Part shown: piece after piece, positions 1,102 through 28,942 of the stretch | Numbering within the stretch: the stretch's first letter is position 1 | Layout: each line of letters opens with the position of its first letter | Assembly: GCA_943704525.1 (NCBI GenBank) | Contig: CALSCQ010001224.1 | Span: 1 to 51,420, forward strand | Source: Pigoraptor vietnamica | Taxonomy: Eukaryota > Opisthokonta > Filasterea | Length of the DNA: 51,420 nucleotides | Direction of reading: 5' to 3' | Program-made: the position numbers and the translations under genes | The notes under the pieces: generated by a model | The model's database searches: none | Seen by the model: the letters and a program-made list of their open reading frames with translations, nothing else | Told to the model about the DNA's origin: nothing

Positions 1102-2114
1102 CCCCCACACCTCAAGGATCTTTTATCATACCTATGTGCTCGCCTTTGCTTGTGTGGCCTTGTGGCCCTGCGAGGTTGAATTTTGTTGTCACACGTCTGT
1201 ACTATTGGTTGGAGTTGCTGCTTCATGCCTTACGCTCCGTGTGTGGCCTCGTGCTTTAACAGATGCTGCTGTGGCGGCATGAACATGGCGCTTTGTATTG
1301 CTCAATGGTCACGGGCCCGGCGGTGTGAGTGCGTAATTGCTGACGTTGTATGTTGTCATACAATTTTGTAGGACTCAACTTTGCAGCGGATGCGTGACCA
1401 AAAATGCGCGTTATTGTGTAACAAGTATTGTATTGTTTCTGTGGACCGTGGTTGCTGGCTGATCACTTGACGGACGACTCCATGTCCCTCGTCTTGAGAT
1501 ACAATCGTTGCTATCTGACCGCGTGCGATGTGCCCTGGCTCCATTTCGGGCCTGCTTTTCCTAAACCAACCATGCAATACGTGGTACTATGGACAACATG
1601 CAGTAAGCACCTTTGTCAGATACGCTGCGCACACGCGCACACGTGCACACGCACACAGACGTCCTAACTGTGAGCAAGTCTGCGCTCGCGTGGGCGTGGT
1701 CGAAGGTACGGCCGATGCGGTTGTTGGAGGAAAGTCTCCTTGCCGAGCACCAATCGAGCAACAACAGACGCACGCGAGCAGATGCAGTAGACCCTGCGAA
1801 CCAGCGTTGTAACGAGTCGCAATGACTGCCCGTCCATTTCTTCAGCTTAAACAATATGTGACAAGGACGAGAACACAGACGTACGCCACGGGCATGCAAT
1901 CGACTGTTGCAACTACCACCTGGCCGCTCGCGCTCACCAAGGTCTCGTTTTCGCTTCGCCCCCGCGTCTCTACCCCTTCTGTCTCTACCCCTTCTGTTGC
2001 CTTTTCCTCTCTCCCACCTCCTTCGTTTTTTCCCCTTCCCTTTTTCATTGTTACGCACGCTGCGCACGCAAAAGTCGACCGACAGCCGGAATAATGGCAT
2101 CGCGGACACGGTTC
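1102..2114. other. H4 to F-box/LRR spacer, no gene seen
   Basis: About 1 kb between the H4 3' end and the 3' end of a leftward F-box/LRR gene. It has a short CA-rich stretch near 1622-1655 and a direct repeat of TCTACCCCTTCTG near 1968-1997 in a pyrimidine-rich tract. I see no protein with family features and no tRNA. Confidence 0.6.
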
Positions 2115-3236
2115 TCAATCTTTCCTCCGTTCCCCGCGCCCTATCACCGGTGGTTGGAAACCAGCGGCGACATCAAACCCTCTTATTCGATTGATAATGT
2201 ACGCATCAATGGTACGACTGTAGCCGTCCCATCGACGCAGTTCCAGCGGAAGGCCCTCACAGCAGACTGTGTTGAGCACTCTCACCGACGAAAGCGCCGA
2301 AATGTCCGTTATGTTGACGCAGAAGGCGATATCAAGCTCACGCACACCCCCGAGCATGCTCACGTCACGCACGGGCGTCTCGCGAAGCGACAGCCTGCGC
2401 ACGCCCGCGAGCGCAGAGACGTCCTCCACTGGGCAATGGTCGAGCACGAGGGTGTCGACCCCGCCGAGTGCAGACACATCGCGCACGTTCATGCACCACG
2501 ACAGGTCCAAATACTTGACGGAACGAAGCGACGACACGTCCGAAAATGAGCCAAATATGCGCAAGTAAGTCGCATTCCCAAGCACCGCAACATCGGCGTC
2601 GTCGGCAGCCACAACGCTCACGCACGTCGACCGCGCAAGGGGCGAGAAATCGCCAGTGAAGTCCCCCAAACACACGGTGTGGACGCCCTCCAATGCGCGC
2701 ATGTCCCTCGCGAGCGGACAACTGCTCATACCGAAGTAGCGCAGGCGACCGTTCGCCAGCGGAGACAAATCGACGAGCGAGTCCAAGAATGAAATCTCGA
2801 GCACTTCGACGTTGCGCAGCGCACTGAGGTCCGTAATGTTGTGACTGTGGCTGAAGCGCAGCGCAACGGCCGACCCAAGCACGTCGAGGTCGGCGTTCGT
2901 GAAGGGTATCGTGTTGCGCACATCGAGCGTGCGGAACCCTCGCAGCGCCGACACGTGCTTGAGCACACGGATATTGGACAAATCAACGAGTGTGTGCTCG
3001 CGCGGGAAAATCGAAGGAAACGCCGTGTCGTCCGTACACAGCCTGCTCGCTGCGTCGCATTGGAGAACGAACGGGCGCACGCGCGACACGAGCTCACGCA
3101 GGCTGCGGTTGACCTTGCGCACGGCCACAACCTCCTTGTCCCCAAGATAGGGCACGACATGCGACAGAAACACCTCCACAGGAAGGTCCAACAGGAGACT
3201 GCGCCCGTGCGAGGGAGGAAGAGAGTCTTCGCACAT
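2115..3236 (-). CDS. F-box/LRR protein, copy 1
   Basis: A 373-aa intronless protein. Residues about 10-45 (LLLDLPVEVFLSHVVPYLGD ... VRKVNRSLREL) are an F-box, the Skp1-binding motif of SCF ubiquitin ligases. The rest is about ten short leucine-rich repeats of 20-23 residues with the pattern VxxLxVSxCxxLxDhSAL, the usual substrate-recognition surface. The start at 3236 (MCEDSLPPSHGR) was chosen because it aligns with the start of copy 3. The frame stays open to 3374 but that extension has no counterpart. Copies 2 (15569-16695) and 3 (17104-18270) share long near-identical DNA blocks with it, most strikingly around 2330-2520. Its C-terminal tail (ELRRWDGYSRTIDAY) differs from theirs. The substrate is unknown. 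Confidence 0.8.
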   Translation of the reverse strand: MCEDSLPPSHGRSLLLDLPVEVFLSHVVPYLGDKEVVAVRKVNRSLRELVSRVRPFVLQCDAASRLCTDDTAFPSIFPREHTLVDLSNIRVLKHVSALRGFRTLDVRNTIPFTNADLDVLGSAVALRFSHSHNITDLSALRNVEVLEISFLDSLVDLSPLANGRLRYFGMSSCPLARDMRALEGVHTVCLGDFTGDFSPLARSTCVSVVAADDADVAVLGNATYLRIFGSFSDVSSLRSVKYLDLSWCMNVRDVSALGGVDTLVLDHCPVEDVSALAGVRRLSLRETPVRDVSMLGGVRELDIAFCVNITDISALSSVRVLNTVCCEGLPLELRRWDGYSRTIDAYIINRIRGFDVAAGFQPPVIGRGERRKD

Positions 3237-4072
3237 TGCTTCGTGACCGTGTGAACGAGCGCAGGGAGAGATGCCGGCGACGCAAGTGCCACTCTCCGCA
3301 GTCGCAGCGACGAGTGGACTCCCCCGCTCGGCCACGCCCATCGCAGCGCGCTCTGTCGCCATGGGTGAGAACAAAAGCCTTTCTCACTTGGAGATGGACG
3401 CGTCGCTGTTACCGAGCCAGTCACCACTGCCGGTCACTCTCCACAATCAAAAACTGCCCATTTACGTTCGGAAATGGAGGCGCCCTTCGACGTTCTCGGT
3501 TTTGACGCCCATCCCCCCATCGATGGGCCAACGCACTTCACAAAAAAAAACACAGCGTGACAACGGCCATCTTCGGCCATCACGTGACCTCCATATCAGG
3601 CCTAATTCGGACGCATTCCTCAAGTAAGTCCCAGCCAATCGGAGCGAGGGGTGTCGGCATGCACGGTCACACAGTCCCACACGCACGCACACACGCACGC
3701 ACACACCTCTCTCGCCTCGTACACTCTGCGTCATGGCACCCCCGCGCATTTTGACGTGCTTCATGTGGCTATCTTTACTCAAAGAGCAAAACGTAATTCA
3801 AATTTATCTTCCCGTTTGTGTTTGCGGCGACACTCAAAAGGGGCGTGTCGCCATTCGCGGCGTGGCTATTCATCTTTTCTCACCACTCGGATAACCCGTT
3901 TCTATCTCGTCACTCTCCGTCCCCACGTCCGCGCATTTGTGAGAGGGGCACCTCGTCTTCTTCGCTTCTCTGTTGGTGGCTCAAAAGCGGTTCGAGTGGT
4001 TGCTGCGTCGCGTGCACGTGCGTCGACATTGGCTGACGAGCGGTTGACGCATCGACTCCGACGTACGGTGCC
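3237..4072. other. Divergent spacer between F-box/LRR copy 1 and ABHD18
   Basis: About 840 bp holding the 5' flanks of two divergent genes. A CA-rich stretch lies near 3668-3705. No TATA box as clear as the histone ones, and no coding region I can support. Confidence 0.5.
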
Positions 4073-5701
4073 ATGGCGGCGACCATTGGACAGTCGGCCG
4101 CGGCGAGGGCAAGCGCGCTCGATCGCATCTTTCGTCAGTTTGTTATGCGCACGCGCTTTTTCCAGGACGGCTTTGGGACGGTGGAAGAGATCAACCGCAT
4201 CCTTACTCTCCGGTCGTGGGCCTTTTCGAGCCGGGACAACGTGCGGGCGCTCGTTGCGCCTCGCCACCCTGTGACTATTGACAAGGTACTCAGAGAGGCT
4301 GCATGCGGTCATTGTGTGTGAATTTATGCATGGCTGCTGCATGTGTGTGCCGATGTGTTTTGTGTTGCGTACATTCGCGCGTGTGACGTGTTTACGTCTC
4401 GGACAGGGATGTGCTCACACGCTCACGTCACATTGGGCACACAAAAGGCACACGTGCATATGTGCCATGTGTGTAAGAGTATGGGAGCATGTTGGGTCCG
4501 TCAGGGAGTGTAGTGTCTGTGTGTTTATATGGGCGTGCTAGCTGACCATCCCCCCCCCCTCCCCCCCCGCTTCCTTCACGGCGCAGATGGAGACCCAGCG
4601 CGACTGCCGCGTGTTCTCCGGCCACCTCCGCGCCCCACTCACCGAGTGTCTTCCCGGCGCACTCCCAAAAGAGAGCGAAACGGCGCACTTTGAAATGATA
4701 CTCCCCAAAGCACCGCAACAGCGACAGCCCATCGTCATCCACTTTGGCGGCACCGGCGACCACTTTTTCTGGCGGCGGCGCGTCTTCCTCGCCCGCCCTC
4801 TCCTCGCGCACGGCATCGGATCGATCATCCTCGAGAACCCGTTCTACGGCGTTCGCAAGCCCGCGCGGCAGTACCGTTCGTCTCTCCGGCGCCTCACGGA
4901 CCTCTTCGTAATGGGGGCGGCGCTCGTGCTCGAGTCTGTCGCGCTGTTCCAGTGGTGTGAACAGCAGGGCTACGGCCCGTTTGGAGTGACGGGGATATCG
5001 ATGGGCGGGCACATGGCGTCGCTGGCCGCGGGTGCATGGCACAAGCCGCTGGCGATCGTCCCGTGCCTGTCTGCGAGCAGTGCTGCGGCGGTGTTTACGA
5101 AGGGCGTCATGTCGCACGCGTGTGCGTGGAAGGAGCTGTCGGAGCAGCTCAAGGACGAGGGACCGGTGGGTGTTGTGGGGACAGACGCATTGGACTGCAG
5201 TGGCTGCATGGAAGTAGTATGGGCTCATAATGGGCTCACCATGTGCATATATATTTCTGTCTCGTTGCACGACTGTCAGTGGGAGTTCAACCCCTATGAC
5301 GGCGTACTGAACTGAGGTCTTTGCATGACATGTTTCACCATTCCCATTCTCACCCACGCCGCTTCTCTCTGCAGAACATTCGCAAGGTGCTCCAGGCGGC
5401 CTCCCTCCAGTACTCGACGACGCCCACAAACCTCCACGAGGAAACTGTCGCCATGATGCGCTGCCTGCTTGACGAAGCCACGTCCCTCCGCAACTTCCTC
5501 GTTCCCGTGAGCACCGCCGCCTCCATCTTTGTCGTCGCGCGCAACGACGCGTACGTTCCCCCGGAGTCTTCCGAGCCCGTGCGACAGCTATGGCCCGGCA
5601 GCGAGCTGCGCTACGTCGACGGCGGTCACGTTAGCTCGTTCTTGTTGCGGCAGAAGGATTTTCGCCGCGCGATTACCGACGCGTTCGATCGTCTGGAGTG
5701 A
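4073..5701 (+). CDS. ABHD18: ABHD18-type alpha/beta hydrolase
   Basis: Three exons, 4073-4285, 4587-5216 and 5375-5701, joined in phase 0, give about 389 aa. The donor of intron 2 could also be at 5214 (one codon shorter). The family signature is clear: LDRIFRQF ... TRFFQDG at the N-terminus, IHFGGTGDHFFWRRR (oxyanion-hole region), LENPFYGVRKP, LFVMGAALVLES, then GVTGISMGGHMASLA with the nucleophile Ser near residue 209 in a GxSxG elbow. The likely acid and His are in RNDAYVP and DGGHVSSF near the C-terminus. ABHD18 (DUF2048) proteins occur across eukaryotes and have been linked to mitochondrial lipid (cardiolipin) handling; I infer the same class, not a tested substrate. Intron 1 ends in a C-rich tract before the acceptor. 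The long insert between the nucleophile and the acid residue seen in the human protein is missing. Confidence 0.9.
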
Positions 5702-6282
5702 GCGTGCACAAGTGCTCTCTCTCTTTGCCACCGTGACAATCTATGTGTATGTGCGTCTGGGCATATGCTATGTGCGTGCATTCTGCGTACATTAGGGACT
5801 TTTCCTCCTGCGTCCCTGATTAATGGTGTGTGGATGTGCTGCGAGTGCCATCGTGTGGCCTTGACGCCCCACGAGCGCGCTTCGCCCGAACTGTAAATAC
5901 TTTGCGTCGTCGTCGATTTCATTTCGTGTGTATGAGTGTGGTTACGCGCGTGCGTGCGTGTCGTGCCTTCGCCGCGACCTGGCGTTGTGACGTGTGGCGC
6001 CAACGTTTTGAACTGTGCACGCGAGGGGTTTATTCACTCTCGCGTTTGCGACTGTTCATGTAAATACAGCCGAAAGAAAAGAAGAAAAAACGTGTGAGCG
6101 TGTGTGTGGGAGCACTTTGCCAAATCACGTGCTCGATTTTGCTCCACTTGATCGATGACTCACGCAGACTGCCGTTGGACGGGTCCAACAAACAGATCAT
6201 TTTCGTTCTCACTCTATTTTGTGCGTCCCTCTGCGTTTGCACCCGTGTGCGCACGCATTGACGCGTGCGTCGTCGTTTCAGC
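5702..6282. other. ABHD18-CARS2 spacer with two TGTAAATA sites
   Basis: Same-strand spacer of 581 bp. TGTAAATA occurs at 5892-5899 and 6059-6066. This is the RNA octamer bound by PUF (Pumilio) proteins, and TGTAA is also a polyadenylation signal in some protists, so these may be 3' UTR elements of the hydrolase gene. TTTCAG directly precedes the CARS2 ATG, so an upstream untranslated exon is possible. Confidence 0.4.
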
Positions 6283-6820
6283 ATGCTGCAGAGGGCGTTG
6301 CTTGTCAAAGCGCGATCTCACAAGGATGCCGTGCGACACGTGCGCGTGTCATGCGTGCGCTCCCTCTCGACCGCAACGAAGAGCAAGACGGAAGTGAACG
6401 ACACAGGCGTGCGCATATACAACTCGCTGAGGGATCGCATTGAGCCGCTTGTTGTTGCGCGTGGTCGGCCTATGTCGTGGTACGCGTGTGGACCGACAGT
6501 GTACGACGTGGCGCATCTCGGCCATGCAAGGTGTGTGATTCACGTGAGGAGTGTGCCGTCTCCTTCTGACGGTGCGGTGTGTTTTACACTGAGCTCTCTC
6601 TCCCACGTGCACTCAGACACATGCGTGCGCGCATGTGAGTGCACGCAGACACACGCTGGCATATGCTCACACTGGCATTTGTATATCGCACACCCAGTTG
6701 CTATGTGCGCTTCGACATTGTGCGTCGCATACTCCAGAACTACTTTCGCCTCCCGATTGTGCAGGTGAGTGGTTGGCCACCGAGGTGTGACGGGGGCTTG
6801 TGTGTGAGAGTGTGTGTGTG

Positions 6821-6866
<46 letters not shown>

Positions 6867-9800
6867 GTGTGTGTGCGCGCGCGCGCGTGTGTGTGTGTGT
6901 GTATGTATGTGTGTGTGTGTGTGTATGCGTGCGTGCATGAGCCTGTGTGTGCGTGCATTTTAGCTGCAAATACTTCTATTGAAACTGCGTGCGTGACACG
7001 GACTGTCCTGTTGTGCGTGTGTGTGCGCATGTGCGTGCGTGCAGGTAATGGGAATGACCGACGTCGACGACAAAATCCTCGCAAAGGCGACTGCGCTTGG
7101 CGTTCACCCGACCGAAGTTGCGCGGCAATACGAGGCCCTCTTCGCGAAGGACATGGCGGCATTAGGGGTGCGTCGGCGTGCACACTGTGTCACCATATCT
7201 CCCTTGTATCTCTCTGCGTGCCTCGCTCTGAGCCACTCGTGTATCTCTTGCTGTTTCACCCGCGTGTCCCTCTCTGTGTCCCTTTGTGTCTTCGCATTCA
7301 TCCACTCTGTAACTCCCTGTGTCTTGACATTCAATCACTCGGTGTGTCTTCGCATCCATCCACTGATGAGTTCATGCTGTGTCTTCACTCATGTATCTCT
7401 CACCGTCTCGCCCGTGTGTCACTCTCTGCGTCTCCCTGTGTCTTCGCATCCATCCACTGATGAGTTCATGCTGTGTCTTCACTCATGTATCTCTCACCGT
7501 CTCGCCCGTGTGTCACTCTCTGTGTCTCCCTGTGTCTTCACATTCATCCACTCTGCTGCACTCAATGAGTTCATGCTGTGTCTTCGTCACACGTCTTGTC
7601 GCCTCTGCCGTATTGAACGATTCCCAGTGACTCTCCCATACTCAGTTTCCCATCGCCTCACCCTTTATCGGTCGTTCTGTGCAAAGCTGAGAAACGCCGA
7701 CAGCTGTCAAACCATAGTAACGACTTGCACATTACGTGGGTGCAATTCGCGCAAGCTGACCCTCCCTTCTCGCAGGTCCTTCCCCCGCACTGGATTGCGC
7801 GCGTGTCAGAGCACATCGACGACATTGTCGCGTTCGTGCGGCGTCTCGAATCACGTGAGTTTGCGTACACTGCGGGCGACGGCGGAGTCTACTTTGACAC
7901 GCGAAAGCTGCCGAACTACGGCGCACTTGCGCGGGGGCGCGAGGCATCGCAATGGGACGACGAGTCGACAGAAGGCAAAGGTGAGCTTTCTTTCTCTCCA
8001 TCTCTCTCCACGTGCGCTGATAGAGTCGATGAGGGATCAACCCATGTGACTGTCGCGAACTGAGGTCTCTGCGTGCGCTTTAGTGGATGGACAGCTGTCT
8101 ATGAGTAAGGACTGAAGGGTGTCTGAGTGCAATTGGCGTTGTGCAGTCCAGTTGTGCATGCGGCGTTGCAACTTAGATAAGCGCACTAAATACAGTCAAT
8201 ATATACGGCGCACAGTCGCGCAGCAAGGCACGCACGCGCCTTCTCACACGCGCTCTCGTGCACCTTCGCAGCGTCCGTTAAGCGCCATCCGGCGGACTTT
8301 GCGCTGTGGAAGCCGTGGAAGGCGGGTGAATCGCTGTCGTGGGACTCGCCGTGGGGCAAGGGGCGCCCCGGGTGGCACATCGAGTGCTCGGCCATGGCAA
8401 GGTATGGCGTGTGTCGCCGTCACGTTGTGCTATAATGCCCGGCACAAGTCCTGTCTATTCTGCTGTCACTTGTGTGTGCCCCGAGTGTTACATGGGCCAA
8501 AGTAGATGGGAGAAGGGGGCTTGTATGATGACTCCATGACGTTGTATAGCCTCTCTCCTTCGTTCACTCACACGTGCAGTTAGCACTGAAAACGCAACGC
8601 GCGTTGCAATGGACTCGGCCCTTTGTGCTTTCGTTCATCCGCTGACATTGACGCAGCCGAATGTTTGGTGCGCACCTGGACTTGCACTCGGGCGGCATCG
8701 ACCTTCGCTTTCCACACCACAACAACGAAGTGGCGCAGTGTGTGGCGCATCACGGGTGTGAACAGTGGGGGAATTACTTCATGCACTCGGGTAAGTGGCA
8801 TGTGCTGTGTGTTTGAGGCACGATGCACGCCGCGCTCACTCTCACGCAGACTCAAACGCACGCGCACATCCTTAACCCATAACGCACGCATGCACATCCC
8901 GCACACACACGCGCGCGCATGCAAGCCTCCCACTCATGCATCGTCCGACGATGCCCAGGGCACGTCCACATTGAGGGCCGCAAGATGTCCAAATCACTGA
9001 AGAACTTTGTCTCCATCGCCGATTTTCTCGGCTCGGGCGACGCGGCCGCAACGCGCGCGCGCCACTTTCGCATTCTCTGCCTCCTTTCTTCGTACCGCTC
9101 AAACATTGAGATAGGGGACCCCTCGTCCGCCCTCGTCCACGCCGAAACCGTCGACAAGAAGATTTCGGCGCTTTTTGAGATCGTCGGGGCGGTGTCTGGT
9201 GTCGGGAGCGGCGGCTCAAGCGAGTGGGGCGCCTCGCTGCCGTCGATGCGCTGGGGGAAGGAAGAGGAGGAACTGCTGAAAGCGTGAGTGTGCGATTGTG
9301 TGTGTGTGTACTGCAGAGTATGCAAGACGCTGTGGACGGAAACACCTGGCACACATGCGGACTTGGATCTCCGCCCCCTTTTAGTGTTGACTATGTGTTA
9401 CCAGTCTCTTCTCAATTGCAGTCTCTCACACTAGCGGGCCTCTCTGTCGCAGGCTTTCCGATACCGAGATGGCCGTCGATGGCGCCCTTCGCAGCGACTT
9501 CAGCACGCCGGAAGTGGTCATGGCCACACTCGCGCTCGTCAGCCGGGCGCACGCGTACATTATGGGCGCGTGGACGGCGTCGTCGGGTGGCAACGTGGCC
9601 AACACGGCGGGCGCTGTGCACCTGCCCCTCGTCGCGAATGTCGCGCGCTTCATCAACGAGACTTTCTCAGTGTTCGGCGTGTCGTACAGTCACGTGAGTG
9701 AATTGCATGAAGGCTAGTGGGTTGCCATTGCTCTCTCGCTTCCCCCCGTTCCGCTGACGCGTTCGTCCCGTTGGTGCACGTGCACAGGGAAAGACAGTCG

Positions 9801-13370: not shown

Positions 13371-14632
13371 TCAATCATATCCGATCCCGTTTCCGTCCGT
13401 GACGTAAGGGTTCTCAGCCGGGCTGACTGGACGGCTGGCGTCGCACACAAACAGCTCGACGTCCGTGATGCGCTCGGGGCCGCTGCCTCCGTAGAAGATG
13501 TCCCCACGCGAGTAGGAGCCCATTTTCGACGACCAGTTGTCTCGCTTGTCCGCCAAGTTGTTGACGGTGAGTTCGCCGTTGCTCCCGAACGCGCACGTCT
13601 TCCCCGTCGGCGTCACCGTGTTGTACGTTGTGCATTCGAAGATGGCCGGCGCCATGGGCTTGCCAGTGTTTCGCAGCACGAAGAGTTTCGTCGACATGGT
13701 TGTGCCCCGCGTGAGATGCTGCGTCGAGAGATTGGGAATGCCCGCACCGAAGAGCACCGACTTGGTCCTGAAAACGGCAATGATTTGCTTCCCCGTCGAG
13801 CCCCTCGCGCCGTTCGTTGGCTGTGGAATGCGCGCGTGGAAGTCCGCGGGCGAGAACCCGTCCCGCGTCGCCCTGTAGACGAGGCTCCACACGCGTCCGT
13901 GCGACGGTGGAAACCACGCGAGGAGTTGCGTGCGCTGGGCGCCGTCCAGCAGCGCAGTGCCTTCGAACGACGGCGTCGGAAAGTAGTCGGCGCCGAGCTC
14001 TCGGAAGAGCCGCCCGAGCAGCGCGTTCATGTCCTTCGTGCTCTCCTTGATTGCGCCGTACTTGGAGGGCTGCTGCGTCGTCTGCTCATCGACCTCTCCG
14101 ACGGCGACTTGGACGATTTCGAAGTTGGCCTGGAACCGGCGCAGCGCATCGACGATAATCTCCTTCTCCTTCAGCATGTCGAACTTGTCCACGACGCGCA
14201 TCATGTCGTCGTTGAGGCGCTTGATGTCCTCCCACGTCTTGGGTGCGTAATTCAGCTTGTCGCTGCGTCAGATTACGGGCCTCAGCACATACTTCAGGGG
14301 GCACGGCATAGCTCAGGGAGTGCGCGACGGCAGCAGCCGACCCACTTGAAGATGTCCGTAATCCCGGCGTCCATTTTCCCGCGGAAGGTCCATTCGTCGA
14401 GGAGGCTGTCCATGGCAACGCTCGTCGCCGTCTCGCTCACCGTGAACTTTGGGGACGTCTCGCTGTTTCCTGCACGTGCCTTGAGCGTTGCTTTCGATGC
14501 GCCCTCCTCGCACTTGTCGACGAGGCGCAGGGGATAGGAGTACGTCGTGAAGCTGCCCTTTGCCTCGACTTTGGCGATAATCTCGTTGTTGATGGCGTGG
14601 ATCGCCCTTATCATCTGCACGAGCTCGTCCAT
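13371..14632 (-). CDS. Coiled-coil/TLDc-like protein, copy A1
   Basis: Two exons (14632-14346, 14262-13371; donor GTGGGT, phase 2) give about 392 aa. The N-terminal half is helical and charged: MDELVQMIRAIHAINNEIIAKVEAK opens it, and residues about 97-160 (YAPKTWEDIKRLNDDMMRVV ... ALRRFQANFEIVQVAVGEVDE) look like a coiled coil. The C-terminal half resembles a TLDc domain: LLAWFPPSHGRVWSLVYRAT, RDGFSPADFHARI, a following strand IIAVFRTKSVLFGAG, and a closing GGSGPERITDVELF. TLDc proteins include OXR1 and amoebozoan signalling proteins, but no catalytic role can be assigned. An in-frame ATG also exists at 14719; the start at 14632 was chosen because copies A2 and A3 begin at the same MDE. The family has three members here. 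Confidence 0.65.
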
Positions 14633-14824: not shown

Positions 14825-14866
14825 GTCTGATGCAGGGGTACTCCCGTGACTACCCCTGGTCTGATG
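14825..14866. mobile_element. 26-bp hAT-like palindrome with 8-bp target duplication
   Basis: A 26-bp imperfect palindrome (14833-14858) beginning CAGGGGTACTC and ending ACTACCCCTG, flanked on both sides by exactly GTCTGATG (14825-14832, 14859-14866). Ends of the form CAGGG...CCCTG plus an 8-bp direct repeat are the signature of hAT-family transposition. The element is little more than two terminal repeats joined head to head. A near-identical one sits at 22118-22145 with a different 8-bp duplication. Confidence 0.6.
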
Positions 14867-18685: not shown

Positions 18686-20065
18686 TTAACTTTCTTCACT
18701 ATGATATGCCGCCCTTGCGCCAAACTCGGACGAAAACACCTCAACGTCGGCGATGCGGTCGGGTTCCGTTCCGCCGTAAAAGATGTGTTCGCCGTACTTG
18801 CCGTTGATGCCTTCCGGGTTGGAGCTCCAGTTTCGACGGTTCGCTGAGAGGTTGCCGACATTCAACTCGCCGTCGTCGCCCACACTCAGCATACTGGACT
18901 CGTGCATTGTGTCGTTGATAGCCAACGAGCGCGAGAGGACGACTGGGCCCACCCGCGGTTTTCGCAAGTTGCGTAGTACGAAAAGCTTCGCAAACACTCT
19001 CTGGCACGTGGATTCGGAAAAGTGAGCGTTCGTGTCCGACAAATACGCACCAAAGAGCGCCGCTGTCGTCCGTAATACCGCAACCATGTGATGGCGCGCG
19101 GACGATTCGGTCTGCGCGGTGGGAATGCGCGCGTGAAAGTCCGCGGGCGAGAACCCGTCCCGCGTCGCCGTGTAGACGAGGCTCCACACGCGTCCGTGCG
19201 ACGGCGGAAACCACGCGAGGAGCTGCGTGCGCTGTGCGCCATCCAGCAGCGCAGTGCCTTCGAACGACGGCGTCGGAAAGTAATCCACTCCCAGCTGTAC
19301 GGAGAGGTCGCCAAGCAACCTGTTCAAGCGACTCGTACCCTCCTGGACGCTGTCGTACTTGGAGGGCTGCTGCGTCGTGCGCTCGTCGACCTCTCCGATT
19401 GCGACTTGGACGATCTCAAAGTTGGTCTTGAACCGCCGTAGAGCGTCGACGACCGCGTCCGTCTCTCGAAGCAGAGCAAACTTGTCCACGACGCGCATCA
19501 TGTCGTCGTTCAGTCGCTTGACGTCTTCCCACGTCTTGGGCGCGTAATCGAGCCTGTTGCTGGCGGTGTGTGCATTCGGCATTGAGTTGACTGTGCCGGT
19601 GCCAGCGCAAGATTTTGTCGTGATTGCACTGCTTATAAAGAGCACGGTTTGAACGCACACAATGAGTGTCCGCGTTTGACGCAACAAGCACCACAATAGC
19701 GAATGCATGCGACATCTTTTGAACTGAAGCGCTCGCAAGAAGGCGCGGACTGTGCAGTTATCGAACGATGCCCGAGCAACCCACTTGAAAATATCCTCGA
19801 CGTTCCCGTCCAGTGTCTCGGCAAACCGCCACTCTTCCAGCACATCCTGCACGTAGACCGTCGCGGTCGTCTCGTGCACCGCAAACGTGGCGCGTGTGTC
19901 CCTATCGGCCCCGGTGTTTGCGCCTGCGCCACCGGCACAGCCGTGTGTGTTGACGATGTGCAGCGGGTACGAATAGACGCTGAAGCTCTCCTTCGCCTCA
20001 ACCTTTGCGATGATCTCCTTGTTGACGACGCCAATCGCCCTCAGTTTCTGAATGAGTTCGTCCAT
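18686..20065 (-). CDS. Coiled-coil/TLDc-like protein, copy A2
   Basis: Two exons (20065-19785, 19559-18686) aligned to copy A1 give about 384 aa, with the same donor context (TTCAA before GTGGGT) and the same acceptor position as A1. N-terminus MDELIQKLRAIGVVNKEIIAK; helical region YAPKTWEDVKRLNDDMMRVV; TLDc-like region VWSLVYTATRDGFSPADFHA, then a closing GGTEPDRIADVEVF. The 225-nt intron is a multiple of three and contains no in-frame stop, so the unspliced message would read through and add 75 residues, including a hydrophobic stretch (LIVCVQTVLFISSAITT). The core shares near-identical DNA with A1 around the RDGFSPADFHARI codons. Function unknown. Confidence 0.65.
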   Translation of the reverse strand: MDELIQKLRAIGVVNKEIIAKVEAKESFSVYSYPLHIVNTHGCAGGAGANTGADRDTRATFAVHETTATVYVQDVLEEWRFAETLDGNVEDIFKWVARASFDNCTVRAFLRALQFKRCRMHSLLWCLLRQTRTLIVCVQTVLFISSAITTKSCAGTGTVNSMPNAHTASNRLDYAPKTWEDVKRLNDDMMRVVDKFALLRETDAVVDALRRFKTNFEIVQVAIGEVDERTTQQPSKYDSVQEGTSRLNRLLGDLSVQLGVDYFPTPSFEGTALLDGAQRTQLLAWFPPSHGRVWSLVYTATRDGFSPADFHARIPTAQTESSARHHMVAVLRTTAALFGAYLSDTNAHFSESTCQRVFAKLFVLRNLRKPRVGPVVLSRSLAINDTMHESSMLSVGDDGELNVGNLSANRRNWSSNPEGINGKYGEHIFYGGTEPDRIADVEVFSSEFGARAAYHSEES

Positions 20066-20546
20066 GGGAGCTTCACTCTCGACGTCGGCACGGCTGCACA
20101 CCGTGTGTCGTCATCAACTTTTGGCAATCGGCCGAGTCCAGACACCTGAACCATCTGACAGCACTTACTGAACGGGCCGAGCTGCCCCGGTGCCGAGCCG
20201 GCGCCGCCGTGCATGCGCCCATGACGCGGATCCCTTTCACTGGGACCTTCAACATATTGCGCACTCAAACCGCACTCACACAGGTGCACATCCCTGGGCC
20301 GCGCCAGTGGATCGCGTCGTTCTGCCGGCTTGAATGCAATGACACGGCGCACACCGGCCACATCGGCCGGCCGCAGCCAGCCAGTTGGGGCGCCACGGGC
20401 GGCCCCGACTCAGACTTGGCCTTGCTGACCGGCTGGCTGGCCACTGAGGCGCCGGCAAAAGCGCACAACTTATTGGCTTAATTTTATGTGCACGCATATA
20501 TCATTGAGTCTGCTCTTGAGTCCACATCACTTCAGTTGACCGTCAA
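20066..20546. other. Spacer with GC-rich palindromic sequence
   Basis: 480 bp between A2 and A3. At 20355-20460 the DNA is rich in CCGGCC, CAGCCAGCCAG and CTGGCTGG words that can pair with each other. No gene supported. Confidence 0.4.
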
Positions 20547-22109: not shown

Positions 22110-22153
22110 GTTAGGCCCAGGGGTACTCACGGGTGAGTACCCCTGGTTAGGCC
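22110..22153. mobile_element. 28-bp hAT-like perfect palindrome with 8-bp target duplication
   Basis: Two perfect 13-bp inverted arms, CAGGGGTACTCAC and GTGAGTACCCCTG, separated by GG (22118-22145). They are flanked exactly by GTTAGGCC on both sides (22110-22117, 22146-22153). It is the sister of the element at 14833-14858 at an unrelated target sequence, which supports movement rather than local duplication. Confidence 0.65.
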
Positions 22154-22176: not shown

Positions 22177-22230
22177 GACGTAGGGTCACACACGGACATA
22201 GGGTCACACACGGACGTAGGGTCACAAACG
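22177..22230. repeat. 18-bp tandem repeat, three units
   Basis: Three consecutive 18-bp units of the form GACGTAGGGTCACACACG with one substitution each in units 2 and 3, ending about 90 bp before the next gene start. Possible promoter repeats; nothing more can be said. Confidence 0.85.
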
Positions 22231-22321
22231 GACGGACGTCTGGGCACAGTGACGCAAAAGCCGCATCAAGCGCATCCACCTGACGCGCTCGCCGCAGTGT
22301 GCGCGTGAGCGAGTGGCGCAC

Positions 22322-25763: not shown

Positions 25764-26104
25764 TACAATATGGTATGCGGCGGGTGTTGGGAGTTTGTTC
25801 AATGGAACGCGCATGCACCAATACACAGTGTGTGCGGCGCAGGCATTTGGTGGCAGGCACCCGGCGGTGAGTGTTTTAAGCATTGTCGGCACCTGGTTCC
25901 GCGGGCTGAGTGAGTGGCCTTCAGTACTTAGCCACTTGAAGATTTCATTCAATTTCAACAGAGAAAACAGTTTCATTTTGCTGGACAGTCAAATTATTTG
26001 GCCGCGGACACTCCGCTAAAACTGACGTGCACCTGTCACTGAAAACGTGCTCTTCGCGCACGCGCCAACCGTGTCCATAACCCGCTTTTGCCGTGTGTGC
26101 TGTC
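25764..26104. other. Spacer, no gene seen
   Basis: 341 bp between same-strand genes. An AT-richer patch lies near 25930-25990. No clear TATA box or gene. Confidence 0.5.
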
Positions 26105-28942
26105 ATGGAGCTCCTTCGGTCACTGAAATGCGCGCTCTTGCTGCTGGGCGCCACGTGCTGGCTGTATGTTGTGTTTGCGTTTATCCGCGCGCCAGCGATT
26201 CACGGCGCACTGGGTTCGCTCGGCACGGTATTCCCGCAATCCGCGGCGAGGCCGGGCGTTGATGTCCTTCGTAATGACGCCTTTGACGAATTACATCGAG
26301 CGAAGGCGGGGGACAAGAAGCGCGCGGATGGTGCGGCCGACCTGCAACTGGCCCTGCGACGGCCTTTACACGCTCACAGACTCAGAGTTGCCGATGTGGA
26401 AACTGACGCGACTAGCCGTCCGTGGCGATCGCTCGACGAGACAATGGAGGAGGTTATCAAGTTCGTCGACGACAAGGCGATGGCGGCGGGCAGAGGGCTC
26501 GAGGGGATGCGCGTGTGCTTCGTAGCGGCTGCCGTCGCGGGCCCGACAGCCTATGGCGGTCTCGGACAGGCCGTTCGGCGGCAAGCCGTGCTGTACGCCG
26601 AGCAGGGCGCGAACGTGGACATTGCGTACACCGGAGGGTGCGCCGCACCTTACAACCACACGCACTGGGAGGCAGAATTCGCGCGCATGGGGATCACGTT
26701 CATCCCTGTGCCGCGATCGGCGCCGAACGACACGTACGGGACCGATCTCATGCAGCGGGCATACGACGTGTACCTCTGGATGCGCCGTCGCCACTCGCAG
26801 GACGGCGTCAACTACGATCTCGTCGTGTTGCACGACTTGCAAGGTCACGGGCTGTACGTGCAGCACGCACAGCGAGCGGGCATTGCGTTCGCGAACTGGG
26901 CCATTGTGACCCACGCGCACAGCTCTCTGCGACTGGCCGACTACTTCAACGCGCGCATGCTCAAAGGCGATTCGGAGCTGGTCACGTACGCGATGGAGCG
27001 ACTCACCGTCGAAATGGCGGATGTGGCCCTGTCGCCGTCCGAGTTCTACTACGCGTGGATGCAAACCAAGGGATACGATCTCAGCCCTGCGCACGTGTGG
27101 ATGCGGCGGTGGACGGTGCAGCTCCTCACGCCACACGAGAGCACGAACGCGCCGCGCGTGTTCGACAACATTGCCCGGTACGGTCAGCACGTCATCTCGC
27201 GAAAGTTCGGCTACTTCGGGCGAATGGACCGCCTCAAGGGCCTGCTCACGCTGCTCGATGCGCTGGACCACCTCGTCGCGCACGCGTCGGCATTTGGCGA
27301 GAACTCGCTGCCGAAGGAGGTCCTGTTCGTGGGCGACTCCGCCGAGCTTGTCGTCGACGGCTACTCCATTCAGGCCGCCGTGTACGTCAACGTGCGAAGG
27401 AGGAAAGGGAATTGGCCGTTTTCCGTGAAATTCGAGGACGGCATGAAGTCTGCCGACGCCGTTCGAAAGTTCGTCACCGAGAACTACATCGTCGTGAACC
27501 CAACCAACTGCGACGTGGCGTCGACTGTTACGCTCGAACTCTTGAGCGCCGGCGTCCCCGTGATCGTAACGAACGCGTGCGCGATTCCAGAGCTCGTCGG
27601 CGACAAGAACATGTTCGACGAGTGGTCGTTTGGGCGCGGTGAGCACCTCGAACTCGCGCATCTCATGCGCAAGGCGATGAGGTACGGCGTGCCTGTGAAC
27701 CGCCCTCACTTCAACAACGCACTCTTAGCGAAGCTATACGTCGCCGTCGCGAAAGCCGCCGTTCACTACGCCCGCGAGCGCAACGTAACGGCGGAGGCTC
27801 TGCAGAGGAAGCAGGAGGACGGGGACGGCGGCGCCACGGGCGAGTGTCCGCTGACCATCGGGGTTGCCACACGTGACCGCCCGGACTACTTGCAGGAGCT
27901 CCTCGAGAGCTTGGTTGCGCAGACGTGGTACCCGCCTGGCACCGAGCTGCTGATCATCGACGTGGCGTCAGTGAATGCGACGGATGTCGAACGCGCGGTC
28001 GACTCATTCCGGGGCGCGCTTGCTACCAGGCGGGTCGCCACGCGGTTCGCGCGGTGGGAGCGACCCGCGCACATTTCGGTCGCGCGCAATGCCATTATGA
28101 CTGACGCCGCCGGCACCTTCATCCTGTTTATCGACGACGACGACATTGCTGCGCCGCACATGGTTGAATGGATGTATAGGGCGGCGGTTCGCGGTGCCGA
28201 CGTCGTGACGGGATTCGCGCGAAACTTTGAGGACGGCAGTAACGGTCGTGTGCAGAAGCACGTGTCGCTATCTGTTGGCGCGGCCCACGAGAGCACGCTC
28301 TTCGTTCACCACACGGGCAAGTCCAACGTCCTCGTGCGGGCGCAGACGCTGCGCGAGGTTGGCGGCTGCACGCTCGACGACTTCTCGGCGCCGACGCCCT
28401 TTGTCGATTGGGACATGTACGACAAACTGCTGGCGCACGGGGCGCGCGTCTTCGTCGTCCCCGAGGTGACCTTCCTTTACCGCATGCGGAGTCGCAACAC
28501 CATATTCTACGGGTCCGTCGGCAAGCAAGATCTCACGCACTTTGCCCACGCAAAGCGTGCACAGAGCGTGTGCGACATGTACGGCATTCCGCAGCACGCG
28601 TGCGCCGGGATAACGGCGGCGATGCAAGAGCTTGCACGACCTGGCGCCGGGCGCAGCTTCCAAACGGGCAATCGCCGCGAGAAAGAGGCGGCGTGTCAGT
28701 GCCAGTGTCCAAATCCGCAGCCGAACGCACCGAGCTTTGCCTCGTCCAAGGCCTCGCCGTCGTCCGTACCTCAGTCGCCGTCGTCGGTCGGTACTTTCCG
28801 TTCACCGTCGTCGGTACCTTCGCCGTCGTCGGTCGGTACTTTCCGTTCGCCGTCGTCGGTCCTTTTGCCGTCGTCTGCACCTTCCACGGGCTCCGCATCG
28901 ACGACTACGGCGAATGTCGCGAGCGAACAAGCGGGCGACTGA
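26105..28942 (+). CDS. Membrane-anchored protein with two glycosyltransferase domains
   Basis: An intronless 945-aa protein. Residues 8-27 (KCALLLLGATCWLYVVFAFI) form a single N-terminal membrane anchor, as in type II Golgi enzymes. Residues about 135-560 look like a GT-B (GT4-type) domain: GPTAYGGLGQAVRRQA, VVLHDLQGHGLYVQ, KFGYFGRMDRLKGL, and NCDVASTVTLELLSAGVPVI before the final helix. Residues about 580-850 are a GT-A family 2 domain: LTIGVATRDRPDYLQELLES, RNAIMTDAAGTFILFIDDDD (metal-binding Asp cluster near residue 675), then VDWDMYDKLLAHG. A Cys-rich spot (CQCQCPNP) and a Ser/Pro tail with repeated SPSSVGTFR units end the protein. It probably extends a glycan using two sugar donors. The start at 26105 is the first ATG and places the anchor at the terminus. 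Confidence 0.8.
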   Translation: MELLRSLKCALLLLGATCWLYVVFAFIRAPAIHGALGSLGTVFPQSAARPGVDVLRNDAFDELHRAKAGDKKRADGAADLQLALRRPLHAHRLRVADVETDATSRPWRSLDETMEEVIKFVDDKAMAAGRGLEGMRVCFVAAAVAGPTAYGGLGQAVRRQAVLYAEQGANVDIAYTGGCAAPYNHTHWEAEFARMGITFIPVPRSAPNDTYGTDLMQRAYDVYLWMRRRHSQDGVNYDLVVLHDLQGHGLYVQHAQRAGIAFANWAIVTHAHSSLRLADYFNARMLKGDSELVTYAMERLTVEMADVALSPSEFYYAWMQTKGYDLSPAHVWMRRWTVQLLTPHESTNAPRVFDNIARYGQHVISRKFGYFGRMDRLKGLLTLLDALDHLVAHASAFGENSLPKEVLFVGDSAELVVDGYSIQAAVYVNVRRRKGNWPFSVKFEDGMKSADAVRKFVTENYIVVNPTNCDVASTVTLELLSAGVPVIVTNACAIPELVGDKNMFDEWSFGRGEHLELAHLMRKAMRYGVPVNRPHFNNALLAKLYVAVAKAAVHYARERNVTAEALQRKQEDGDGGATGECPLTIGVATRDRPDYLQELLESLVAQTWYPPGTELLIIDVASVNATDVERAVDSFRGALATRRVATRFARWERPAHISVARNAIMTDAAGTFILFIDDDDIAAPHMVEWMYRAAVRGADVVTGFARNFEDGSNGRVQKHVSLSVGAAHESTLFVHHTGKSNVLVRAQTLREVGGCTLDDFSAPTPFVDWDMYDKLLAHGARVFVVPEVTFLYRMRSRNTIFYGSVGKQDLTHFAHAKRAQSVCDMYGIPQHACAGITAAMQELARPGAGRSFQTGNRREKEAACQCQCPNPQPNAPSFASSKASPSSVPQSPSSVGTFRSPSSVPSPSSVGTFRSPSSVLLPSSAPSTGSASTTTANVASEQAGD

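Follow-up and report, generated by a model that had tools for sequence, protein, structure and literature searches.

Two short palindromes in a contig of Pigoraptor vietnamica are very probably excision scars, each left by a P-element-like DNA transposon. The larger one (CAGGGGTACTCACGGGTGAGTACCCCTG) lies at 22118-22145 of the window, the 51,420-nucleotide stretch analyzed here, which comprises all of contig C497 (59% G+C) from a 32.5-Mb assembly of 1,395 contigs. As a sequence-only reading of the window had correctly described, this 28-bp palindrome consists of two perfect 13-bp arms around a GG center and is bordered exactly by perfect 8-bp repeats (GTTAGGCC, 22110-22117 and 22146-22153). 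A 26-bp sister palindrome with imperfect arms (CAGGGGTACTCCCGTGACTACCCCTG) is located at 14833-14858, between perfect 8-bp repeats of its own (GTCTGATG, 14825-14832 and 14859-14866). The same reading had put the pair forward as a candidate for an undescribed mobile unit; we interpret both as P-type excision scars and not as an ultra-short mobile unit. Interpreted in this way, their parts would be as follows (subfamilies are defined below):

22110..22117, no strand: left target-site duplication (TSD) GTTAGGCC, identical to 22146-22153
22118..22132, plus strand: left stub, nucleotides 1 to 15 of a subfamily-A end (CAGGGGTACTCACGG), matching real A ends on contigs C336 and C996
22133..22145, minus strand: right stub, nucleotides 1 to 13 of a subfamily-A end (GTGAGTACCCCTG on the plus strand), joined blunt to the left stub; compared with real A ends
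22146..22153, no strand: right TSD GTTAGGCC
14825..14832, no strand: left TSD GTCTGATG
14833..14843, plus strand: left stub, nucleotides 1 to 11 of a subfamily-A end (CAGGGGTACTC)
14844..14858, minus strand: right stub, nucleotides 1 to 15 of a subfamily-A end, with a single later mismatch (CAGGGGTAGTCACGG); an 11+15 join as in scars on C21, C1042, and C1263
14859..14866, no strand: right TSD GTCTGATG

The window was scanned for inserts of 13 to 60 bp that begin with CA, end with TG, and lie between identical 8- or 9-mers, with at most one mismatch in 7 allowed between the outer arms. Many repeat-rich stretches were listed, and only the two palindromes had such arms; ten mononucleotide shuffles of the window yielded no insert with arms of this kind. 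A single 13-bp arm with up to 3 mismatches occurred 11 times in the window against 11.84 expected and was thus not unusual. The unusual feature is the pair of arms together with the flanking repeats, not one arm alone. Adjoining the 28-bp scar, at 22180-22240, is a short tandem repeat with a unit of about 20 bp (agggtcacacacggac..t), of which three copies were recognized by eye.

A genome-wide search for CAGGGGTAC..GTACCCCTG with 2 to 20 bp between the arms revealed 22 places, and a reversed-pattern control revealed none. With 21 to 50 bp between the arms the pattern occurred once in the whole genome, and with 51 to 80 bp not at all. A relaxed search (7-bp arms, 4- to 30-bp spacing) returned 54 places against 3 in the control, 50 of which entered the listing. 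From all loci extracted from the genome we assembled a wider set of 55 full palindromes, in which one of two nested scars on C164 was removed as a duplicate. Copies with scored flanks, as the sequence-only reading had suggested collecting, showed perfect 8-bp repeats at 11, perfect 9-bp repeats at 6, and a 7-bp repeat at 1 of the 22 places, with none at the remaining 4. In the wider set the repeats were perfect over 8 bp at 28 palindromes and over 9 bp at 8 (together 36/55), measured 7 bp at 2, and were absent at 17. Copies lacking a duplication, which had been named as grounds for rejecting a transposon origin, therefore exist, but as a minority. When the left flank of one site was compared with the right flank of another, none of 2970 cross-pairings matched, and no repeats remained when the flanks were shifted by 1 to 5 bp. 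The flanking repeats are insertion duplications. Both 7-bp cases are at scars L077 (C616:21934) and L044 (C400:2860); the end of L077 is of the CAGGGGTGCTTATA type and perhaps represents a further subfamily.

The commonest scar, the 19-mer CAGGGGTACTGAACCCCTG, was found at 14 places in either orientation, 13 of them with a perfect 8-bp repeat. A recurrent 26-mer, an 11+15 join without microhomology, is exact at three places (C21, C1042, and C1263) and differs by one mismatch in its window copy. On C164, two 19-mer scars alternate with three copies of GATCACGC, i.e., the scars share a site. Viral loci (L031-L038) were left out of the scar counts. These eight IMG/VR viral contigs carry CAGGGGTACTC..GAGTACCCCTG palindromes, seven of which are 29 bp long; an 8-bp flanking repeat was found at 0/8 of them, and they are probably unrelated hairpins.

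Scars could be sorted into subfamilies by the bases that follow CAGGGGTACT, which are CACGG in A, AATC in B, and GAAC in C; D starts with CAAAGGTGCT. Duplication length tracks the subfamily: it is 8 bp for scars of A, C, and D, and for those of B it is 9 bp, perfect in 8 of 9 full palindromes and absent in the ninth. Larger elements with the same ends are also present in the genome. Their ends consist of an outer module of 14 to 16 nt followed by the inner motif GGGGTRTGCAACTC, and the following were seen outside scars (outer module / continuation):

C336, C996: A end, CAGGGGTACTCACGGA / GGGGTATGCAACTC
C674, C1179: B end, CAGGGGTACTAATC / GGGGTATGCAACTC
C440, C570: B-like end, CAGGGGTACTAACC / GGGG..
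C1345: C end, CAGGGGTACTGAAC / GGGGTATGCAACTC
C585, C1253: C end, CAGGTGTACTGAAC / GGGG..
C179, C375, C579: D end, CAAAGGTRCTTATAG / GGGGTGTGCAACTC

At up to one mismatch, GGGGTATGCAACTC occurs at 18 places in the genome (control, 3). Sequence was inspected at 15 of them: 12 come after a recognizable family end, and at C597 (cut by the contig end), C1124, and C308 the family end is absent or poor. The remaining three (C620, C719, and C1212) agree with family ends by coordinates alone. Seven ends (C336, C996, C440, C579, C570, C585, and C1253) sit 113 to 120 bp from a contig end, as if multi-copy repeats had broken the assembly. C1345 carries a C element whose right end, with AATGGACG after it, abuts a 17-bp B scar that AAATGGACG follows; on C1253, a C left end comes after AAATGGACG, and both contigs carry AATGGACG beside an end. 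Judging from these shared flanks, the two contigs may be the two sides of one site, at which a B insertion would have preceded the C insertion. Scars of type D, sought once the D end was known, were found at 2 places (control, 0), one of them with a perfect 8-bp repeat.

To the 55 full palindromes we added 9 truncated scars, and this catalogue of 64 was decomposed against the real element ends. Since the truncated scars were mostly chosen for a visible repeat, TSD fractions are given for the sets of 22 and 55 only. Most scars can be broken down into at most about 15 nt from each end of a real element, joined, often with filler, between the two copies of a TSD; the joins range from 12 to 41 bp. 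Microhomology allowed for, 62/64 keep nothing past the outer module and 2/64 keep one further base. The longer stub most often measures 14 nt in subfamilies C (14/27) and B (5/10), whereas in A it is 15 nt in 7/25 and 11 nt in 8/25. Two subfamily-A scars have a longer stub of 17 nt, and both share 3 nt of microhomology. Overall, 30 junctions show microhomology of at least 1 nt, 25 contain inserted bases, and 9 are blunt; since chance alone should produce a 1-nt match at about one-quarter of joins, microhomology alone is weak evidence. Judged by reading the letters, the filler in L058, L045, and L108 copies pieces of the element end, and a 15-mer within L058 is compatible with several subfamilies. 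In three scars (L010, L015, and L093) a single end is retained and the other is missing as far as the intact repeat. In L007 an additional G precedes the repeat, and in L092 the repeat matches at 8 of 9 bases. The stub lengths of 14 to 15 nt, inferred from the scars, fit a staggered cut placed deep inside the element, after which a stub of each end stays behind at the donor site.

We propose that scars of this kind would arise in the following way. A transposase would insert the element and thereby generate the 8-bp duplication (9 bp in subfamily B). Later, it would cleave one strand at the border of the element and the 5′ strand about 14 to 15 nt further in, beside the inner motif GGGGTRTGCAACTC. 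Once the element had departed, the outer module would remain on each chromosome end as a single-stranded 3′ tail, and the cell would join these tails by alternative, polymerase theta-like end joining. The 28-mer of the window would then be a blunt join of 15+13 nt and its sister a join of 15+11 nt.

The closest known counterpart is P-element excision in Drosophila (PMC2895639). P transposase cuts the 5′ strand 17 bp inside its 31-bp end and generates an 8-bp TSD (PMC7776569). The end-joined excision products, formed from 17-nt 3′ tails, consist of the duplication, up to 17 nt, a junction, up to 17 nt, and the duplication again, with microhomologies and templated insertions (PMC2895639). The scars described here are alike in their 8-bp duplication and short stub of each terminal repeat, in their microhomology, blunt, or templated-insertion junctions, in the few recurrent products, and in sometimes lacking one end as far as the duplication. 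They differ in that stubs are 14 to 15 nt instead of up to 17 nt, in the 9-bp duplications of subfamily B, and in being a natural genome-wide set instead of a laboratory assay. Counting against an origin by P-type excision are the 17/55 full palindromes without a repeat of at least 7 bp, the 9-bp instead of 8-bp repeats in B, and the recurrent 26-mer, which, lacking microhomology, is not obviously favored by repair alone. The 8-bp TSD of the P superfamily was found in A, C, and D (perfect at 28/55) and not in B; because its duplications are 9 bp, B qualifies as P-like solely through its ends and scars. According to PMC3276498, the 1360 element of the P group has a TSD of 7 bp, so that TSD length varies within this group, and here it is 8 and 9 bp.

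Since the scar layout resembled Drosophila P-element excision repair, a P-type transposase was searched for. PF21787 was specified in advance on the basis of P-element biology. The profile gave two matches above the curated cutoff, on C179 (34 bits) and on C888 (28.1 bits), and did not match in any of 14 control genomes; scanned as protein, one of the frames was exactly at the cutoff. The C179 domain (5017-5445) lies inside an element of 7,078 bp (1760-8837) with D ends at 1760 (plus strand) and 8837 (minus strand, two mismatches) and with GCAACAAC on both sides as 8-bp repeats. In the stretch examined, its coding frames are broken into several pieces, either by introns or through decay. A P-type domain within a complete element was seen for D only; the transposase would be linked to A, B, and C only through scar type, end layout, and a common inner motif.

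C888 and C179 can be aligned at FDEV/WDEV and CDG motifs, which may supply the two D residues of the catalytic D, D, E triad; the E was not located. A Pfam scan of four C179 and C888 frames detected nothing beyond PF21787, neither a THAP nor a GTP-binding domain; of the P transposase, Pfam recognized just the N-terminal RNase H half. For residues 380 to 1043 of the C888 frame, a database search found no homolog at an E value of 0.001, the only PDB match (E value of 0.54) was meaningless, and a structure model of part of the frame was uninformative (pLDDT of 35.7). THAP is said to be confined to animals (PMC7776569). In zebrafish, Pdre2 has 13-bp ends and an 8-bp TSD (PMC7776569, PMC10983969). 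With the P superfamily as portrayed in these two sources, the C179 element shares the P-type RNase H domain, the 8-bp TSD, and terminal inverted repeats. It differs from Drosophila P and Pdre2 in its ends (CARAGGTRCT../CAGGGGTACT..), its length of 7,078 bp, and the lack of a THAP or GTP-binding-domain match.

Scars or internal-deletion remnants of hAT elements, comparable to the hAT-like MITEs of Acanthamoeba and pandoraviruses, are an unlikely source of the palindromes. CAGGGG-type ends and 8-bp repeats are hAT-like (A and C), but both are common to other superfamilies. The A-family duplications fit the consensus GTNCGNAC (15 sites), which is that of hobo, a hAT element, and P has GTCCGGAC (PMC3276498); because hobo and P are alike there, the target consensus was dropped as a discriminator. 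The MITEs reported in pandoraviruses resemble the scars in being non-autonomous with inverted ends and an 8-bp TSD, but are 116 to 422 bp long with an interior, unlike the stub joins found here (PMC6004678). The hAT dimerization domain PF05699 had no match in the genome; it was also silent in all 14 control genomes and so is uninformative. Against a hAT origin stand the 9-bp repeats in subfamily B, the P-type domain inside a D element, and, if the palindromes are scars, the constant 14- to 15-nt stubs, since hAT excision is not known to leave terminal-repeat bases. It was set aside mainly on scar anatomy and additionally on the P-type domain. The transposon origin inferred in the sequence-only reading is upheld, and its hAT assignment is not supported; longer elements with the same ends, which it had asked for, exist (A to D ends and the C179 element). 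Quite improbable, too, is that the palindromes are micro-transposons of 19 to 28 bp, made of two fused ends without interior and mobilized in trans by a transposase. This possibility was weighed for its identical copies, namely, the 19-mer with differing flanking repeats and the 26-mer. However, junctions are many and diverse, filler is templated, longer real elements carry the same ends, and synapsis of two ends 20 bp apart would probably be physically hard. Recurrent products are known in Drosophila as well, where two junctions account for 28/66 end-joining isolates of P excision in rad51-deficient flies (summed over Table 1 of PMC2895639). Nor do the palindromes qualify as MITEs, which possess an interior and transpose as units, for they have no interior. 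It was the one-ended and filler-bearing scars on which micro-transposons were dropped, and these forms likewise speak against the earlier idea of an element shrunk to its fused terminal repeats; the scar of an excision event had been offered with that idea as an alternative.

It is very improbable that element interiors were deleted through replication slippage or hairpin processing, with no cutting by a transposase. Inverted ends favor such deletions, and the microhomology at 30/64 junctions would be in keeping with them, but the breakpoints pile up at the border between outer and inner module, and arms 21 to 80 bp apart are almost absent, whereas random deletion should give variable interiors. 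That a conserved RNA or DNA hairpin had its flanks repeated by chance is hardly conceivable. The repeat-free IMG/VR palindromes indicate that such hairpins can exist for other reasons; however, the 36/55 with perfect 8- or 9-bp repeats contrast with no match among the cross-pairings and no 8-bp repeat in the IMG/VR set, and for the set as a whole the duplications have already refuted chance flanks.

Excision scars of P-like elements would also bear on how these transposases cut and paste, and here a tentative reading, somewhat short of probable, is that at least four P-like subfamilies with near-identical ends reside together and differ in modal stub length (14 nt in B and C, 15 nt in A) and in duplication length, which is 9 bp in B as against 8 bp in A, C, and D. 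On this reading, the inner GGGGTRTGCAACTC, not a fixed distance of 17 nt, would determine where the cut falls, so that P-type transposases would be able to evolve their stagger, and dozens of independent excision repairs would be preserved in this genome as a natural archive. New are the shorter stubs, the coexistence of subfamilies with 8- and 9-bp duplications, and the large natural set of repair products. Among the open-access papers listed by our searches, no title or abstract opening announced a genome-wide catalogue of natural P-type scars. In a genome with several subfamilies and dozens of legible excision products, the place of the cut, the length of the duplication, and the habits of end joining can be compared ahead of any experiment. 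As a caution, annotation as ultra-short MITEs should be avoided for short palindromes that have perfect duplications.

A quasi-palindromic motif like GCGAGNNNTCGGC was noticed near scars, e.g., L067, L073, and L091 (C164, C539, and C55). With a pattern chosen post hoc, after inspection of the flanks, it occurred at 1.53 per kb within 100 bp of scars (14 matches) and at about 0.11 per kb beyond 500 bp (6 matches); the window contains 15 matches, none near either of its two scars. The motif is perhaps a promoter element near which elements insert. Elsewhere in the window, a 949-aa open frame (26093-28942, plus strand) joins group-1 and family-2 glycosyltransferase domains and has a single weak database relative, labeled glycosyltransferase by its source. 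TLDc domain matches were found in minus-strand frames at 13371-14204 and 18686-20101, the second below the curated cutoff.
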